Shown in pieces: positions 12,748 through 19,785 of a stretch of DNA of 64,000 nt. The notes beneath the pieces were generated by a model. The model ran no database searches and was not told the origin of the DNA. It was given only the letters and a program-made list of their open reading frames with translations. The DNA lies in contig NZ_VCQU01000001.1 of assembly GCF_012932915.1 (NCBI RefSeq), positions 1-64,000 of the forward strand, given 5' to 3'. The translations under genes were made by a program, and so were the position numbers. How positions within the stretch are numbered: position 1 is the first letter of the stretch; each line of letters opens with the position of its first letter. This DNA comes from Antrihabitans stalactiti (GTDB lineage: Bacteria > Actinomycetota > Actinomycetes > Mycobacteriales > Mycobacteriaceae).

Positions 12748-13593
12748 TCACGAACGGCGGATCAGGATGTCGCCGTAGCTGGTGTTTGCGTGGACCTCGA
12801 CCGTCTCCTCCGTGGCGGCCGGGGCCTGGGATGCGTCCATGTAGTTGTGCACCCGACCGAACCCGGTGTGGACGTCGAGCCGAGCGGCTGTGCCGGAACG
12901 AATACCGACCTCGATCTGGCCGAAACCGGTCTTGACCGTTGCCGATCCGCGGACCGCCGCGCCGATTCGAATGTCACCGTTCGCGGTGTTGCCGGTGATA
13001 TCGCCGGCCGCGTGATCGACGGTGATATCGCCATTGGCCGTGTTGACCCGCAGACTTCCGGTCACACCGCCAACCCAGATGTCGCCATTGGAGTTCTTGA
13101 TCACCGCATTGCCGTCGATCTCGCGGACCCGCAGCTTCCCTGAGCCGGTCGTGATTTCGGCGTTGCCTTGAACGAGGTCGACGACGATTCGGCCGGCGCC
13201 GGTCGTGAGGTCCGCGGACTTCGCCTGATCGAATTCGATGTCACCGGCGCCGGTCTTGACTCGGCAATCGCCCAGCCGACCCGCGGACCGGAACGCCCCC
13301 GCACCAAGATCACCCTGCACGTGCGACCCTTCCGGGAGTTCGATCGCCACGTCGATCGATCCTGGCTTGGAGAAGATGCCGAAGCCGCGCGGCTTGGGCC
13401 CCTTCACCAACAGCCGTCCTGATGCGTACTCAGCGCGCGTCTGCTCGGCGGCGCGGACGTCGACATCGTTTGTGGCATCGCTGGGCGTGACGGTCACAAC
13501 GGTGTCGTCGCGGTCGCTGGCTCGTACGGTGACCTCGCCCCACGCGATCTCGATGGTGGCCGAAATCGGTTCTGGTGTCTTGAAATTGGGCAT
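12748..13593 (-). CDS. DUF4097-family beta-repeat protein
   Basis: 281 residues forming a right-handed beta-solenoid type repeat: recurring units such as LGDCRVKTGAGDIEF, ADLTTGAGRIVVD, AEITTGSGKLRV, AVIKNSNGDIWV and LRVNTANGDITV, about 18-20 residues each, from residue 100 to 215. This is the DUF4097 pattern, found in putative adhesins and in proteins beside envelope-stress regulators. No signal peptide or membrane anchor, so it probably stays in the cytoplasm here. AAGGGA precedes the ATG. It lies between the RHH regulator (54-base gap) and the ABC genes (72-base gap). Confidence 0.85.
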   Translation of the reverse strand: MPNFKTPEPISATIEIAWGEVTVRASDRDDTVVTVTPSDATNDVDVRAAEQTRAEYASGRLLVKGPKPRGFGIFSKPGSIDVAIELPEGSHVQGDLGAGAFRSAGRLGDCRVKTGAGDIEFDQAKSADLTTGAGRIVVDLVQGNAEITTGSGKLRVREIDGNAVIKNSNGDIWVGGVTGSLRVNTANGDITVDHAAGDITGNTANGDIRIGAAVRGSATVKTGFGQIEVGIRSGTAARLDVHTGFGRVHNYMDASQAPAATEETVEVHANTSYGDILIRRS

Positions 13594-13647: not shown

Positions 13648-14157
13648 CTAGCGGACCCACCCGGTGAAATGCTCGCCGCCGCGCGCGACTCCCCTACCCG
13701 CCGATTGACCGTGACCGTCCGGCTCCAGCGCTGCCGCAGCCGACCGCACCAGCCAGGCGTTGACCGACAGTCCCGCCTGGCGTGCCGCCTCCTCGACTCG
13801 ACCTTTGAGGTCCTCGCTGAGGCGCAGATTGATTCGGGCCATCGCACCCTCGTCGGCTTCCGGTGCCGGGCGAACGGCAATTTCCGTCACGGGCGGCGCT
13901 GCCGGGGGCGAGAGCTGGGGCAACGTGACCACAAAGCTCGGCTCGCGGCCACGCAGCCGTACGTCGACCGACCCTGGAGCGAGATCACGGGTGATCTCTG
14001 CTGCAGCGGCGGACAACGCTTCGAGCAGGACGAGCCGGACGGCCGACTCGAGGGGTGTCGCCAATCGCTCGGCCAGTTCACGGGCTTCGTCGCCGCCCGC
14101 TTGGGCAGCTACTGCAAGTTCGTGCTGGAGCGTGTCGACGTAATCTCTCAATTCCAT
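13648..14157 (-). CDS. Ribbon-helix-helix (HicB-like) DNA-binding protein
   Basis: 169 residues. The N-terminal half is helical and acidic with a short beta-rich part; a ribbon-helix-helix module sits near residues 105-143 (ARINLRLSEDLKGRVEEAAR, then AGLSVNAWLVRS). The C-terminus is a flexible Gly/Arg tail. No HicA or other toxin gene is adjacent, so a regulator role is more likely than an antitoxin. The phased repeats at 14156-14187 overlap its start codon and are probably its own operator. Confidence 0.82.
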   Translation of the reverse strand: MELRDYVDTLQHELAVAAQAGGDEARELAERLATPLESAVRLVLLEALSAAAAEITRDLAPGSVDVRLRGREPSFVVTLPQLSPPAAPPVTEIAVRPAPEADEGAMARINLRLSEDLKGRVEEAARQAGLSVNAWLVRSAAAALEPDGHGQSAGRGVARGGEHFTGWVR

Positions 14158-14695: not shown

Positions 14696-15259
14696 TCACC
14701 CTCGCTCGGCGGTGCTGCGCACCCGAAACACCACCCACCGCATCGCCGAGTACATGAACACCGCCTCGCATGCGCCTGCGATCAGTCGGGCGACGTGGTA
14801 CTCGACACCCACTGCCGCGAGTCCGCTGCCGATCCCAAGAATGAATGCCGCGTAGTTGATCGCGACCACCACCGCGTAGAGCTCTGCCTGCCGACCGACC
14901 GGCGCGTGGGAGCGGAAATTGAAGGTGCGGTTCAGCACGAAGCTGAGGCCGAAGGCCAGCACGTAGGCCGTCGTAACAGCCACTGGCACCGGCCAATTCA
15001 GCCACCCGTGGAAGACGGTCAGCAGCGCGAGATCGACAGCGAACGTGAACCCGTTGATGATCGCGAACCCCAACAGTGTCGGCGCGACGATGCGATTCAG
15101 CCCGAACGGCAGCACACGAACGACCGCCGAACAGAAGGCTGCGAACCGGTCGACGAAGCTCGCCCGCGTCACGTCCTCGTCCACCGCCACGACGCGAGCC
15201 TGCCAATCCCGGATGTCCGCGAGGCAACATTCAACCGAACGGATGGGTGCCACTACCAC
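14696..15259 (-). CDS. GtrA-family membrane protein
   Basis: 187 residues with a 50-residue soluble N-terminal part and four hydrophobic segments. VLAFGLSFVLNRTFNFRS with a preceding Tyr is the GtrA/PF04138 hallmark (the FxxNRxxxF element). GtrA proteins are thought to move polyprenyl-linked sugars or take part in cell-wall polysaccharide synthesis. Starts with GTG at 15259; a later start is possible because the N-terminal part is not membrane-like. Single gene, no sugar-transferase neighbour. Confidence 0.85.
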   Translation of the reverse strand: MVVAPIRSVECCLADIRDWQARVVAVDEDVTRASFVDRFAAFCSAVVRVLPFGLNRIVAPTLLGFAIINGFTFAVDLALLTVFHGWLNWPVPVAVTTAYVLAFGLSFVLNRTFNFRSHAPVGRQAELYAVVVAINYAAFILGIGSGLAAVGVEYHVARLIAGACEAVFMYSAMRWVVFRVRSTAERG

Positions 15260-15319
15260 CCGAAGATGGGTGTGCCGCCGGATAGTCGTGGCGCCGTTCG
15301 TTGAACAGACTTGTGCACC

Positions 15320-15553
15320 ATGGAGATCGAGCGCACGACAGTTCCCGGCACGGGGGTGCTACACCTCTGTTGCCCTCGTTCCGGTATCGAACTCGGTGTG
15401 CTTGCCGACAACTCCGGGCGTCGTCAGCTCTTTGTTTACGACGGCGACGATCATGACGTGCCGCTTCGGGTGATCGTGCTTGACCCGGACGAAGCGGACC
15501 AACTTGCCGAGATGCTGCACTGCCGCTGCCGAGGTGGCCATGCGAGCGCGTGA
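15320..15553 (+). CDS. Truncated cation-antiporter regulatory domain protein
   Basis: 77 residues that resemble only the N-terminal domain of the KhtT/AmhM-type regulatory subunits of actinobacterial cation:proton antiporters: [33 protein letters not shown] and [16 protein letters not shown] match that pattern. The usual C-terminal TrkA-C (RCK-C) domain, which binds a nucleotide, is missing; the frame stops and a CBS protein starts instead, overlapping by 14 bases. ATG at 15320 is chosen over a TTG three codons before. Likely a partner of the transporter two genes downstream. Confidence 0.65.
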
Positions 15554-15998
15554 TATCGCGGCGACTCTGCCGACCGTCACCATGCGCGACCCGGTCGCGC
15601 AGGCAGTCCAGCTGATGGTTGTACGCCGCCTACCAGGGTTGATCGTCGTGGACGATCGATCGAAGCCGGTCGCCGTACTGCCCGGGACCCAGGTGCTCCG
15701 GCTGGCGATTCCGCAGTCCTACCAGTCGGATCCGGCTCTCGCGCGGACGATCGACGAGGTCCATGCCGATCAGTTCTGGCAGGAACTCCGCAGCTTGACC
15801 GTCGGCGATTGCCTGCCTACGCCGGTTGCCAAACCGCTGACCGTGCTGCCGCAAGCGACGTTACTCGACATAGCCACCCTCATGGCCCGCCATCACAGTC
15901 CGCTGGTTGCCGTCGTCGATCGCGCGGGCGAACTGATCGGCGGCATCACGCTCGAACGTCTGCTGACCAGCCTCGCCGTCTCCGGACTGGGCGGCTGA
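15540..15998 (+). CDS. CBS-pair protein
   Basis: 152 residues forming two CBS motifs: one from about residue 15 ([26 protein letters not shown]) and one from about 95 ([38 protein letters not shown]). CBS pairs bind adenine nucleotides and regulate transporters or enzymes. The start ATG at 15540 lies inside the preceding gene (14-base overlap) and the transporter follows within a few bases, so the three are co-expressed and the CBS protein probably gates or senses for the transporter. Confidence 0.85.
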
Positions 15999-16002
15999 GC
16001 CG

Positions 16003-17328
16003 ATGGGGTCGGCGATGGATACCGCACTCGGGTTCGCAATTTCGATGAAACCGTTTGCTGCGCTTGTCATCTTTGCCGTGGCGTTCTTCTTCATCGCCAC
16101 CGAGCGCGCAGACAAGGTCAAGACCGTCTTGATCGCTGCCGGTGCCATGGTGGTACTCGGCCTGGCGCCGGGCGACGAGGTCTTTTACTCCGAGCATGAC
16201 GGCATCGACTGGAACGTCATCTTCCTGTTGCTCGGGATGATGATCATCGTTGGGATCGTCAAGCAGACCGGGCTGTTCGACTTCCTTGCCATTTGGGCAG
16301 CCAAGAAGTCGGCGGGCCGACCGTATCGGTTGATGGTGATGCTGATGCTGATCACCGCGGTCGCGTCGCCTGTGCTCGACAATGTCACGACCATCATGTT
16401 GGTCGCGCCGGTCACTGTCGTCGTCTGCAATCGGCTCCGTATTGGGGCTCAGCCGTACTTGATCGCCGAGATCCTCGCGTCCAACATCGGTGGCGCGGCG
16501 ACGCTGATCGGCGATCCGCCGAACATCATCATCGGCTTGCGAGCCGGCCTGTCGTTCAACGACTTCCTCGTGCACATGGCGCCCGCCGTCATCGTGATCT
16601 TCATCCTCTTCGTGCTGTTCGCCCGGTTCCTGTTTCGCAAGGCGTTGCACTACAACCCGGACCATGTCGAAGCGGTGATGGCGCTCAACGAACGGCGCGC
16701 GATTACCGATCCGAAGCTGCTGGTCCGATCGCTGAGTGTGCTGGCGTGCGTGATCACCGGGTTCGCCATCCATTCCATCGTGCACGTCGCACCATCGATC
16801 GTCGCGCTGGTCGGTGCGGGCGTCATGGTTCTCGTGTCCGGCCTCGACGTCGGTGAAGTCCTGCAAGAAGTCGAGTGGGCCACGTTGGCGTTCTTCATGG
16901 GCTTGTTCGTCATGGTCGCCGGGCTGGGCCACACCGGCGTCATCGAGGCGATCGGAAACTGGTCGATCGGGGTCTTCGGGTCCGACTACTTCATGGCGGC
17001 AACAGCGCTGTTGTTCGGGTCGGCAGTGATCGGCGCGTTCGTCGACAACATCCCCTACGTCGCGACGATGACTCCTGTCGTCGAAGGGATGGTCGCCGAA
17101 ATCCCCGATCCGCAGACCGGGCAATCGCTGTGGTGGGCCTTCGCATTCGGCGCAGACTTCGGCGGCAACGGCACCGCAGTGGCCGCGAGCGCCAACGTCG
17201 TCGCAATCGACATCGCCCGGCGAAACGGGCACCCGATATCGTTCTGGCAGTTCACGAAGTACGGAATCGTCGTCACGTTCGCCAGTTCGGTCCTCGCATG
17301 GTGCTACGTGTGGCTGCGCTACTTCTAG
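16003..17328 (+). CDS. ArsB/NhaD-type ion transporter
   Basis: About 441 residues, 11-12 membrane segments, of the ion-transporter superfamily that contains ArsB, NhaD sodium/proton antiporters and CitM. Family signatures are in both halves: PVLDNVTTIMLVAPV and NIGGAATLIGDPPNI in the first, AFVDNIPYVATMTPV and DFGGNGTAVAASANVV in the second. GTG at 16003 begins four bases after the CBS stop; ATG at 16015 is an alternative. The SLC13-type fold is clear, but the ion (Na+, arsenite or an organic anion) is not; no other arsenic gene is near. Confidence 0.85.
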   Translation: MGSAMDTALGFAISMKPFAALVIFAVAFFFIATERADKVKTVLIAAGAMVVLGLAPGDEVFYSEHDGIDWNVIFLLLGMMIIVGIVKQTGLFDFLAIWAAKKSAGRPYRLMVMLMLITAVASPVLDNVTTIMLVAPVTVVVCNRLRIGAQPYLIAEILASNIGGAATLIGDPPNIIIGLRAGLSFNDFLVHMAPAVIVIFILFVLFARFLFRKALHYNPDHVEAVMALNERRAITDPKLLVRSLSVLACVITGFAIHSIVHVAPSIVALVGAGVMVLVSGLDVGEVLQEVEWATLAFFMGLFVMVAGLGHTGVIEAIGNWSIGVFGSDYFMAATALLFGSAVIGAFVDNIPYVATMTPVVEGMVAEIPDPQTGQSLWWAFAFGADFGGNGTAVAASANVVAIDIARRNGHPISFWQFTKYGIVVTFASSVLAWCYVWLRYF

Positions 17329-17342
17329 GAGGCGATAGCCAG

Positions 17343-18299
17343 GTGTCCCTGTTCTGGCGGATTTTCGTGTTGAACGCGGCCGTACTCATTGCCGCGACGG
17401 TCTTGCTGCTGGTCGGTCCGGTGACGGTGTCGACGCCGGTGGTCCTCACCGAGGCGATGATTCTGTCGGCTGGGTTGGTCGCAATGCTGGTCGCGAACGC
17501 GATCCTGCTGCGTGTGGGCCTCGCGCCGCTGCACCGACTGACTCGCGCGATGACGACCATCGACCTTCTTCGACCGGAGCCCCGACCTGAAGTCGCAGGT
17601 CATGCCGGAATCGCGGACCTGTTCACCGCGTTCAACACCATGCTCGATCGGCTGGAGACCGAGCGTGCGACGAGCAATGCGCGAGCGTTGTCGGCCCAAG
17701 AGTCCGAGCGCCACCGGATTGCGCAGGAGCTGCACGACGAGGTCGGTCAGACGCTCACGGCTGTGCTGCTGGAACTGAAACGGGTCGGCGACCAGGTACC
17801 TGAGCCGTTGCGCGCCGACGTACGCCAAGTGCAGGAGATCACGCGCGGCAGCCTCGACGAGATTCGGCGGATTGCGCGCCGGCTGCGCCCAGGCGTGCTC
17901 GAGGAATTGGGACTGGTCAGCGCGCTGAAGGCGTTGGCGTCGGAGGTGTCGGCGCATGCCGGCTTCGCGGTTCGGCGCACGTTCGATCCCGCACTCCCCG
18001 ACATCGGGCACGACGGCGAACTCGTGCTGTATCGGGTTGCGCAAGAAGGGCTTACCAACGTCGCCCGGCACGCGTCGGCGCACAACGTCGACGTCACGGT
18101 CCGGGCGGCACACGATGGAGGGATCGACCTGTTGATTCGCGACGACGGCGTTGGCGTGAACGGCGCAGCAGAAGGTGCCGGAATCCGTGGGATGCGTGAA
18201 CGTGCTCTGCTCGTCGGCGCCAAACTGACCCTGCGGACTGTGCAGGAAGGCGGAACCGAGCTGTCGCTCTCGGTGCCGCCGCTGGGGAGCCGGCCGTGA
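17343..18299 (+). CDS. NarL-type sensor histidine kinase
   Basis: 318 residues. Two membrane segments (about 8-26 and 36-56) enclose only a very short outer loop, then a HAMP-like linker, a HisKA_3 dimerisation helix with the phospho-acceptor His131 in RIAQELHDEVGQ, and a HATPase_c domain with DDGVGV and GIRGMRERA. GTG at 17343 is selected because AGGAGG (17327-17332) lies ten bases upstream and overlaps the transporter stop. The lack of a large sensor domain suggests it senses the membrane or the neighbouring transporter. Confidence 0.88.
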   Translation: MSLFWRIFVLNAAVLIAATVLLLVGPVTVSTPVVLTEAMILSAGLVAMLVANAILLRVGLAPLHRLTRAMTTIDLLRPEPRPEVAGHAGIADLFTAFNTMLDRLETERATSNARALSAQESERHRIAQELHDEVGQTLTAVLLELKRVGDQVPEPLRADVRQVQEITRGSLDEIRRIARRLRPGVLEELGLVSALKALASEVSAHAGFAVRRTFDPALPDIGHDGELVLYRVAQEGLTNVARHASAHNVDVTVRAAHDGGIDLLIRDDGVGVNGAAEGAGIRGMRERALLVGAKLTLRTVQEGGTELSLSVPPLGSRP

Positions 18300-18940
18300 C
18301 GCGAATTCTGCTCGCGGACGATCACCAACTCGTCCGGCGCGGCGTGCGATACATCCTCGACAACGAACCGGACCTCACGGTCGTCGCCGAGGCGGGCGAC
18401 GGCGCCGAAGCCTTGGAACTCGCGAAGGCACACCTTCCCGACCTCGCGATTCTCGACATCGCAATGCCGCGACTGACCGGGCTGCAGGCTGCGCGGGAAC
18501 TGTCGCGCCAGCACCCGGACATGCGGATCCTGATCTTGACGATGTACGACAACGAGCAGTTCTTCTTCGAAGCCCTTCGGGCGGGTGCGTGCGGCTATGT
18601 CCTGAAGTCCGTCGCCGATCGCGACCTCGTCGAAGCATGTCACGCAGCGATGCGCGACGAGCCGTTTCTCTACCCGGGCGCCGTGACCGCGTTGATCCGC
18701 AACTACCTCGATCGCGCCAAACAAGGCGAGGACCTACCCGCGAAAGCCATCACCGATCGCGAAGAAGAAATCCTCAAACTCGTCGCCGAGGGCAATTCGA
18801 CGAAGGAGATCGCGGACCTACTCGTCATCAGCCCGAAAACCGTTGAGCGCCATCGTGCAAACCTGCTGCAGAAGCTCGGTTTGCGTGATCGTCTCGACCT
18901 CACCCGATACGCCATCCGCGCAGGGCTGATCGAGCCGTAA
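18296..18940 (+). CDS. NarL/FixJ-family response regulator
   Basis: 214 residues: a receiver domain with acidic pocket ADDH (residues 7-10) and phospho-acceptor Asp54 in LAILDIAMPR, and a LuxR-type helix-turn-helix at about 150-205 (LTDREEEILKLVAEGNS-like, EIADLLVISPKTVERHRANL). GTGA overlap (18296-18299) with the kinase gene shows that the two form a pair. Targets unknown; the transporter genes just before it are plausible ones. Confidence 0.93.
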   Translation: MTRILLADDHQLVRRGVRYILDNEPDLTVVAEAGDGAEALELAKAHLPDLAILDIAMPRLTGLQAARELSRQHPDMRILILTMYDNEQFFFEALRAGACGYVLKSVADRDLVEACHAAMRDEPFLYPGAVTALIRNYLDRAKQGEDLPAKAITDREEEILKLVAEGNSTKEIADLLVISPKTVERHRANLLQKLGLRDRLDLTRYAIRAGLIEP

Positions 18941-19023: not shown

Positions 19024-19785
19024 ATGCGGAACGCCCAGCTATCAGCACGTTTCGTGCTCGTTTCCATTATGGCGGTGTTGCCCGGCCTCGGTCTGTGCAG
19101 CGTTGCCGCCGCGGGCGCCGCGAGTCCATCGGTGAGCTCGGCGGCCGTTCGCTCGGTCGGTCCGGCAGGCGGCGACGTCGTTGGCGTCGCGGCGCCGATC
19201 ACAATCGGTTTCGCCACGCCGGTGGTCGACCGCGCACTGGCCGAACGGACGATCGCGATAGTTCCGTCACGCCCGGTGAGCGGACACTTCACGTGGACGA
19301 ACGACACCGAAGTCCGCTGGAGTCCGGACGGCTACTGGCCGGCCTATACGGACGTGATGGTCGTGGCTGGCGGACTGAAGACGGACTTCAAGGTCGGCGC
19401 AGCGTTGTACGCGGTCGCAGATTTGTCGGCGCATGTGTTCAACGTCAGCATCAACGGCGACCTGGTCCGCGAAATGCCTGCCTCGATGGGCAAACCCGGC
19501 CACGAGACACCGACCGGGCAGTTCTCGATCATCGACAAATACCGCACCATCGTGATGGATTCGTCCACCTATGGTGTGCCGGTCAATTCGCCGGAGGGCT
19601 ACAAGCTCAATGTCGATTGGGCGCAGCGGATTATCGGTGGCATCTTCGTGCACTCCGCACCGTGGTCCGTCGACTCGCAGGGCTACGAGAACGTCAGCCA
19701 CGGCTGCATCAATCTCAGCCCGAGCAACGCGCAGTGGTACTTCAACAACTCCCACTACGGCGACCCCGTCGTCGTGACGTGGTAG
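19024..19785 (+). CDS. L,D-transpeptidase, Ig-like plus YkuD
   Basis: 253 residues. An export signal (FVLVSIMAVLPGLGLCSVAAAGA) is followed by an Ig-like (Big) domain (about 40-130) and a YkuD catalytic domain with HSAPW and the active-site motif SHGCINLS (His226, Cys228). It makes 3-3 cross-links in peptidoglycan by cutting and joining at meso-diaminopimelate; domain order matches mycobacterial Ldt enzymes. A cysteine at the end of the signal could be lipidated but the lipobox is poor. ATG 19024 has AAAGGGGG upstream. Confidence 0.92.
   Translation: MRNAQLSARFVLVSIMAVLPGLGLCSVAAAGAASPSVSSAAVRSVGPAGGDVVGVAAPITIGFATPVVDRALAERTIAIVPSRPVSGHFTWTNDTEVRWSPDGYWPAYTDVMVVAGGLKTDFKVGAALYAVADLSAHVFNVSINGDLVREMPASMGKPGHETPTGQFSIIDKYRTIVMDSSTYGVPVNSPEGYKLNVDWAQRIIGGIFVHSAPWSVDSQGYENVSHGCINLSPSNAQWYFNNSHYGDPVVVTW

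Follow-up and report, generated by a model that had tools for sequence, protein, structure and literature searches.

A lone KhtT N-domain, a CBS pair and a predicted ArsB-fold carrier in a proposed kinase-controlled ion-transport operon of Antrihabitans stalactiti

Gene content and layout

The stretch of DNA analysed here, called the window, comprises the first 64,000 nucleotides of contig NZ_VCQU01000001.1 of Antrihabitans stalactiti (assembly GCF_012932915.1). Between positions 15320 and 18940 it contains five open reading frames, all on the + strand and named P1, P2, P3, P4 and P5 in that order (Table 1), which encode the N-domain of the antiporter regulator KhtT on its own, a CBS-pair protein, a membrane carrier, and a histidine kinase with its response regulator. 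They are read here, with modest confidence, as one ion-transport operon controlled by its own kinase and regulator, in which P5 is predicted to bind a conserved DNA element in front of P1, and P1 and P2 to act on P3.

P1 shares 14 nt with P2, a gap of 4 nt lies between P2 and P3, and the overlap of P4 with P5 is 4 nt long. The start of P4 is most likely the GTG at 17343, judging from an AGGAGG at 17327-17332, in which case the gap between P3 and P4 is 14 nt. The coordinates thus agree with the preliminary description of this DNA as to the content, the order and the overlapping or near-overlapping layout of the five genes.

Table 1. Features of the proposed operon and of the DNA preceding it
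Feature	Position	Strand	Basis
22-bp element ATGGGTGTGCCGCCGGATAGTC, proposed P5 binding site	15266..15287	+	matrix score, conservation
AGACT, proposed -10-like element	15307..15311	+	same spacing in relatives
P1, KhtT N-domain alone, 77 aa	15320..15553	+	profile homology, structure model
P2, CBS-pair protein, 152 aa	15540..15998	+	Pfam CBS; solved homologue 4noc
P3, CitMHS/ArsB-fold carrier, 441 aa	16003..17328	+	Pfam, NCBIfam, PDB, predicted fold
P4, HisKA_3 histidine kinase with short outside loop	17343..18299	+	Pfam, alignment
P5, NarL/LuxR-type response regulator	18296..18940	+	Pfam, PDB relatives

Recurrence of the gene set

The gene order was compared in the loci of the best 80 of 579 relatives of P3 listed from public genomes, a sample that leans to close kin and in which contig ends truncate some loci; the authors chose the thresholds for scores and the limits for distances. 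P2 precedes P3 in the same orientation, at no more than 1 kb, in 78 of the 80 loci, the exceptions being L057 and L086. A half-size P1 lies within 400 nt upstream of P2 in 30, and in L075 it is found beyond P3. A kinase of the P4 family (at least 300 bits) is present in 68 loci, divergent and upstream in 56 and otherwise placed in 12, and none was seen in the remaining 12. Two Kribbella loci (L069, L103) have P2-P3-P4-P5 co-directional without P1, and in the more distant relatives L011-L014, whose P3 is 52-55% identical, P2 and P3 are kept and no P1 or kinase was seen in these short loci. Within the genus of the window, one genome (G002) has a P1 with a tail and a divergent kinase, another (G003) a divergent kinase and no P1, and a third (G001) no close P3. 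The gene set that the preliminary description singled out therefore recurs, while its exact co-directional five-gene order was found in none of the 80 loci, so that the uniqueness which would have counted against it holds for the order alone.

Since P1 accompanies only 30 of the 80 loci, it is best regarded as optional, and the CBS-pair protein and the carrier appear to be the core to which P1 and the kinase pair were added. That P1 is masked as a diverged gene in the loci that seem to lack it was rejected: in 48 such loci, an unfiltered profile search of the open reading frames from the kinase (or from 1200 bp away) up to P2 gave nothing better than E 0.21.

A further gene, encoding a stomatin-type SPFH/Band_7 protein, occurs in several loci, either in the stretch that separates the kinase from P1/P2 or in divergent orientation to the kinase. 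Five such proteins scanned against Pfam gave E values from 7.9e-14 to 2.1e-19, and a profile built from them matches in 23 of the 80 loci, 18 of which have matches of at least 90 bits. It lies upstream of P1/P2 in L034, L035, L036, L048, L052, L058, L070, L075 and L077, and beside the kinase in L063, L064, L071, L084, L108 and L109; in the 80 KhtT-N regions described below the same profile found none. The SPFH/Band_7 gene is a recurrent optional part of the module.

A conserved DNA element in front of the operon

For the DNA between kinase and operon, 41 non-redundant regions were taken from the 45 divergent intergenic regions shorter than 700 nt, leaving out four redundant ones and all those of 700 nt or more. 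Words such as ATGGGTG and CGATGGTC occur in them far above their level in shuffled sequences, and a 22-bp element was derived with the consensus ATGGGTGtCaGaCCCGATGGTc. Sites scoring at least 10 point toward the operon in 40 of the 41 regions and toward the kinase in 24. When each locus was left out in turn, a site of at least 12 was recovered in all 41, as against 0/820 in shuffled sequences and 0/820 with permuted matrices, a comparison that is mildly circular in that all 41 sequences had contributed to the seed. The window lay outside the training set; its one site, upstream of P1, scores 18.4, and the second best in the whole window scores 4.3. In 23 kinase-bearing loci outside training, a site of at least 12 was present within 450 nt upstream of the kinase in 16, upstream of P1/P2 in 13, and in either place in 21, where the operon-side count took P3 if P2 was missing, and counted the same site both ways in L057 and L086.

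Past the operon-side site, AGACT follows at 19 nt exactly in 16 of 40 cases and with at most one mismatch in 27, compared with 5 and 9 at the best other offset; at kinase-side sites the figures are 3 and 8 of 24. The window has its AGACT at this same distance, 8 nt before the ATG of P1. A start codon lies 29-35 nt past the site in 20 of 24 cases on the kinase side and in 7 of 40 on the operon side, so that leaderless transcription was discarded as a general trait of the latter, and in the window the ATG of P1 stands at 33. The element is accordingly read as marking putative regulator-activated promoters, whose transcripts would lack a leader in the case of the kinase-side genes and of the window's own P1, and as the proposed activator site of P5. 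Control of these genes through a conserved DNA element is thus supported by the sequence comparisons. A pattern scan of the whole genome with at most three mismatches gave 125 matches against 66 for the reversed control; the pattern was written after the site in the window was known, and its zero-mismatch match there is not independent.

Half-size and full-length KhtT N-domains

P1 matches no Pfam or NCBIfam family above chance, and its identity therefore rests on homology. A profile of 34 half-size proteins, with the P1 of the window as the first, matches the Bacillus KhtT structures 7agw (E 8.9e-11) and 7agv (E 4.3e-10) over KhtT residues 5 to 69/70, and an hhalign comparison with six full-length KhtT proteins together gave a probability of 95.5 and E 1.5e-8. 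The structure model has a mean predicted local distance difference test (pLDDT) value of 70.7, and its top 11 Foldseek matches in the PDB are all KhtT chains, each with E 7.5e-3 or worse. No match to TrkA_C (RCK_C) was found in P1 by the Pfam scan, whereas the other, full-length KhtT of the same genome contains this half (E 9.5e-17) and is adjoined by a KefB-like KhtU. The suggestion that the first gene holds the N-terminal domain of KhtT only, its TrkA_C half being absent, is borne out.

The half-size relatives of P1 are 84-115 amino acids long and carry after the domain a charged, heptad-like tail of 20-29 residues (46 in one). Only 8 residues follow the domain in the P1 of the window, which has no such tail and whose 3' end overlaps P2 as if the intervening stretch had been deleted. 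G002 (locus L005) and Antrihabitans cavernicola (L056) have an identical P1, which points to this genus for the window as well. Of 190 pairs of P1 genes examined, 32 were usable under filters set by the authors, and 31 of these have ratios of nonsynonymous to synonymous substitution rates (dN/dS) of 0.10-0.55, indicative of purifying selection; the window's own P1 stood outside this set.

The company of the domain divides with its length. When 396 genomes sampled from the phylum were searched with the half-size profile, 81 had matches, and 80 regions were retrieved, 77 with full-length and three with half-size genes; nine weaker places with open frames of 159-217 amino acids were left aside. 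A KhtU-type antiporter lies within 1 kb and on the same strand in 73 of the 77 full-length cases (not in L147, L153, L212 and L217), and none of these 77 regions contains a member of the P2 or P3 family. All four half-size genes, those of L219, L222 and L223 and the window's own, precede P2 and P3. The modular swap put forward in the preliminary description is thus supported at the level of gene company, and the exchange extends to the kinase side, where the P4 family also stands beside KhtT-KhtU in four genomes.

The genome of A. stalactiti has both kinds of KhtT N-domain. It also contains a diadenylate-cyclase gene, so cyclic di-AMP (c-di-AMP) is probably made. CpeA-CpeB of Streptomyces is reported to resemble KhtT-KhtU, its RCK_C domain binding c-di-AMP (PMC10117811).

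The carrier and the CBS-pair protein

P3 matches the Pfam families CitMHS (E 1.5e-89) and ArsB (E 2.5e-13), passing the cut-off of the latter with 50.6 bits against 22.2. Its model (pLDDT 85.3) matches the fold of ArsB (10tp, template-modelling score 0.80), followed by SLC13/DASS carriers. Both lines of evidence agree with the earlier proposal of an ArsB/NhaD-type transporter in the place of a KefB-type antiporter. P3 could be a proton-coupled cation exchanger, an assignment of low certainty.

P2 has two CBS stretches (Pfam E 4.3e-12) and is homologous to the solved protein 4noc over residues 3-143 (E 6.6e-29). Adenosine-binding CBS domains typically contain a ribose-binding motif, G-h-h-T/S-x-x-D/N, that ends in Asp or Asn. 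At the two Asp/Asn positions P2 has Leu53 and Arg140, neither of which varies among 24 sequences, and because of these residues ordinary binding of AMP-type ligands is not assured, other ligands being possible. The idea that the CBS pair replaces TrkA_C as the ligand-sensing part was not supported.

The kinase and its regulator

P4 begins with two hydrophobic segments joined by a short loop, as seen in the sequence and its alignment. Apart from HisKA_3, HATPase_c and a HAMP match barely below the cut-off, no other sensor domain was detected by Pfam. These predicted features make P4 a histidine kinase of the intramembrane-sensing type, in line with the almost absent extracellular sensor noted before. 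P5 combines a receiver domain (E 1.2e-28) with a GerE helix-turn-helix (E 1.1e-18), and its closest solved relatives are VraR and DevR.

In a tree of 46 kinases, P4 belongs to a nine-member clade (support 99/94) that comprises, besides itself, three module kinases of Amycolatopsis, four kinases from beside KhtT-KhtU and one other from the genus of the latter, its nearest row being that of Amycolatopsis thailandensis (71% identical). This clade is separate from the main clade of module kinases (support 100/99), so the module of the window carries a kinase of another lineage, and the view that its kinase is the usual one of the module finds no support in the tree.

From a kinase search of the phylum, with at most five candidates scored per genome, 20 of the places found were retrieved as regions. 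In four of them the kinase is divergent beside a full-length KhtT-KhtU, all four genomes belonging to one genus, and in one it lies downstream of a distant P3 homologue. The 22-bp element accompanies the four KhtT loci that have a kinase, with scores of 27.8, 18.3, 12.0 and 12.0; only one of the 73 KhtT loci without a kinase reaches 12. Three further relatives of P4-P5 from that genus (L226, L229, L230) stand just before a gene that by eye looks like secDF.

Surroundings of the operon

Upstream of P1 and divergent from it is a GtrA-like gene (14696-15259), and an L,D-transpeptidase gene (19024-19785) follows P5. Farther upstream, a small protein encoded on the - strand at 13648-14157 has weak HicB and ribbon-helix-helix matches, that to HicB barely above the cut-off; its gene is adjoined by one for a DUF4097 'toastrack' protein (12748-13593) and by a gene pair that is ABC-type by sequence. 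Control of the operon by a riboswitch was rejected, since the Rfam scan of the window at gathering thresholds returned zero matches.

Proposed mechanism and alternatives

In the favoured reading, P4, having almost no outside domain, would act as a sensor inside the bilayer and respond to a state of the membrane or the carrier. Phosphorylated P5 would then bind the 22-bp element before P1, a site recognised by its conservation and sitting in the place of a -35 box, and thereby turn on the operon, its own genes included. P3 would transport an ion, with proton-coupled cation exchange as the likeliest mode. P1, which lacks the half of KhtT that binds c-di-AMP, and P2 may act on the cytosolic side of P3 and set its activity, P2 serving as a possible ligand sensor.

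Several observations weigh against this reading. Fifty of the 80 loci have no P1 before P2, and the P1 pair of L073 and L089, with a dN/dS of 1.07, looks to be decaying. The kinase of the window appears to come from another lineage than most module kinases. As for the element, L077 and L084 have a kinase and no site of at least 12; of the 12 P3 loci in which no kinase is near, five have a strong site, one a weak site and six none; and the kinase relatives L230, L236, L237, L238, L241, L242 and L243 score below 12 upstream. Two sites inside open reading frames of the genome itself even outscore that of the window (26.5 and 19.6 versus 18.4), so that it is the place of the latter, and not its score alone, which singles it out. 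Each has one mismatch to the pattern, and as the frames look by eye like an inositol-monophosphatase and dnaX, both were taken as chance and a wider regulon of the element in this genome was set aside.

Among the alternatives, P3 may be an arsenite/antimonite or anion carrier in an operon for the efflux of such compounds, with P1 and P2 as minor accessories, which is considered unlikely. ArsB is its nearest solved relative by sequence (E 2.1e-12) as well as by fold, and the SLC13/DASS proteins that come next include anion carriers. However, P3 remains below all named NCBIfam cut-offs: the three ArsB models give 103.7, 86.5 and 85.3 bits against 457, 760 and 415, NhaD gives 57 against 577, and the best family is MamN with 200.6 against 500. 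In place of Asp126 and Asp348, which are invariant in 34 sequences and located at breaks between predicted helices, ArsB carries Ala and Asn, yet it does contain an Asp two residues past the first of these positions. Neither ArsR nor ArsC was seen among the Pfam-scanned neighbours, which do not amount to a full search.

It is less probable still that P1, P2 or both act on the kinase, or that P3 is a co-sensor as in Bce-type modules, and that the operon is mainly a signalling unit. The loop of P4, short as it is, is conserved, with Pro26, Val29, Ser30 and Glu37 invariant in 24 sequences, and intramembrane-sensing-type kinases that cooperate with transporters are known from the parts of the literature consulted. 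Yet most kinase-bearing loci have no P1, and relatives of the kinase are found without P2 or P3. Finally, P1 could be left over from a full-length KhtT and have no present role. This would suit its optional occurrence, the tail-less copy of the window and the decaying L073/L089 pair, but is very unlikely in view of the purifying selection in the other 31 usable pairs, which do not include the window's copy, and of a tail and position conserved in many genera.

A bolder and more doubtful proposal makes the KhtT N-domain a portable transporter-docking adaptor that, released from its c-di-AMP half, would connect a separate CBS ligand sensor with a carrier from an unrelated superfamily. The state of that carrier would in turn influence an intramembrane kinase, which would govern the operon via its own operator. 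Potassium transport under RCK-type control usually involves a unit of two lobes. Here one KhtT lobe occurs by itself, together with a partner that is new and a carrier of another type, and the docking-adaptor proposal, if true, would describe a three-part, split version of that control. For many actinobacteria, the conserved element offers a direct and cheap handle on the targets of the kinase, and it might help to trace the ion moved by these carriers.

What the present analysis adds to the preliminary description is the DNA element, the division between half-size and full-length KhtT N-domains, and the different lineage of the window's kinase. That the CBS pair senses a ligand, and that signalling is coupled to transport, are put forward as hypotheses. 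In the portion of the literature covered by the search, no paper was recognised on this gene set, on the half-size KhtT N-domain, on the pair of CBS protein and carrier, or on the 22-bp element.

Comparison with known systems

Among the nearest known counterparts is the K+/H+ antiporter KhtT-KhtU of Bacillus subtilis, represented by CpeA-CpeB in Streptomyces. P1 is homologous to the N-domain of KhtT, and in four genomes the P4 kinase family and the 22-bp element occur beside KhtT-KhtU itself. The antiporter system differs from the operon of the window, in which P1 is without the TrkA_C half and a CBS-pair gene takes that place, and in which the carrier has a predicted ArsB/SLC13 fold and is not a KhtU. 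By fold and sequence relatives, P3 belongs with the ArsB, NhaD, MamN and SLC13 carriers of the ion transporter superfamily, from which it is set apart by the accompanying CBS protein, KhtT N-domain and two-component pair.

P4 and P5 resemble the pairs LiaSR/VraSR, DesKR and DevSR in their HisKA_3 kinase, short outside loop and NarL-type regulator. Unlike these, they are tied to a carrier operon with a 22-bp element of its own, and their best NCBIfam scores lie below the cut-offs. P2, lastly, is similar to the stand-alone CBS-pair protein 4noc over most of its length, but is distinguished from such proteins as the fixed partner of P3.

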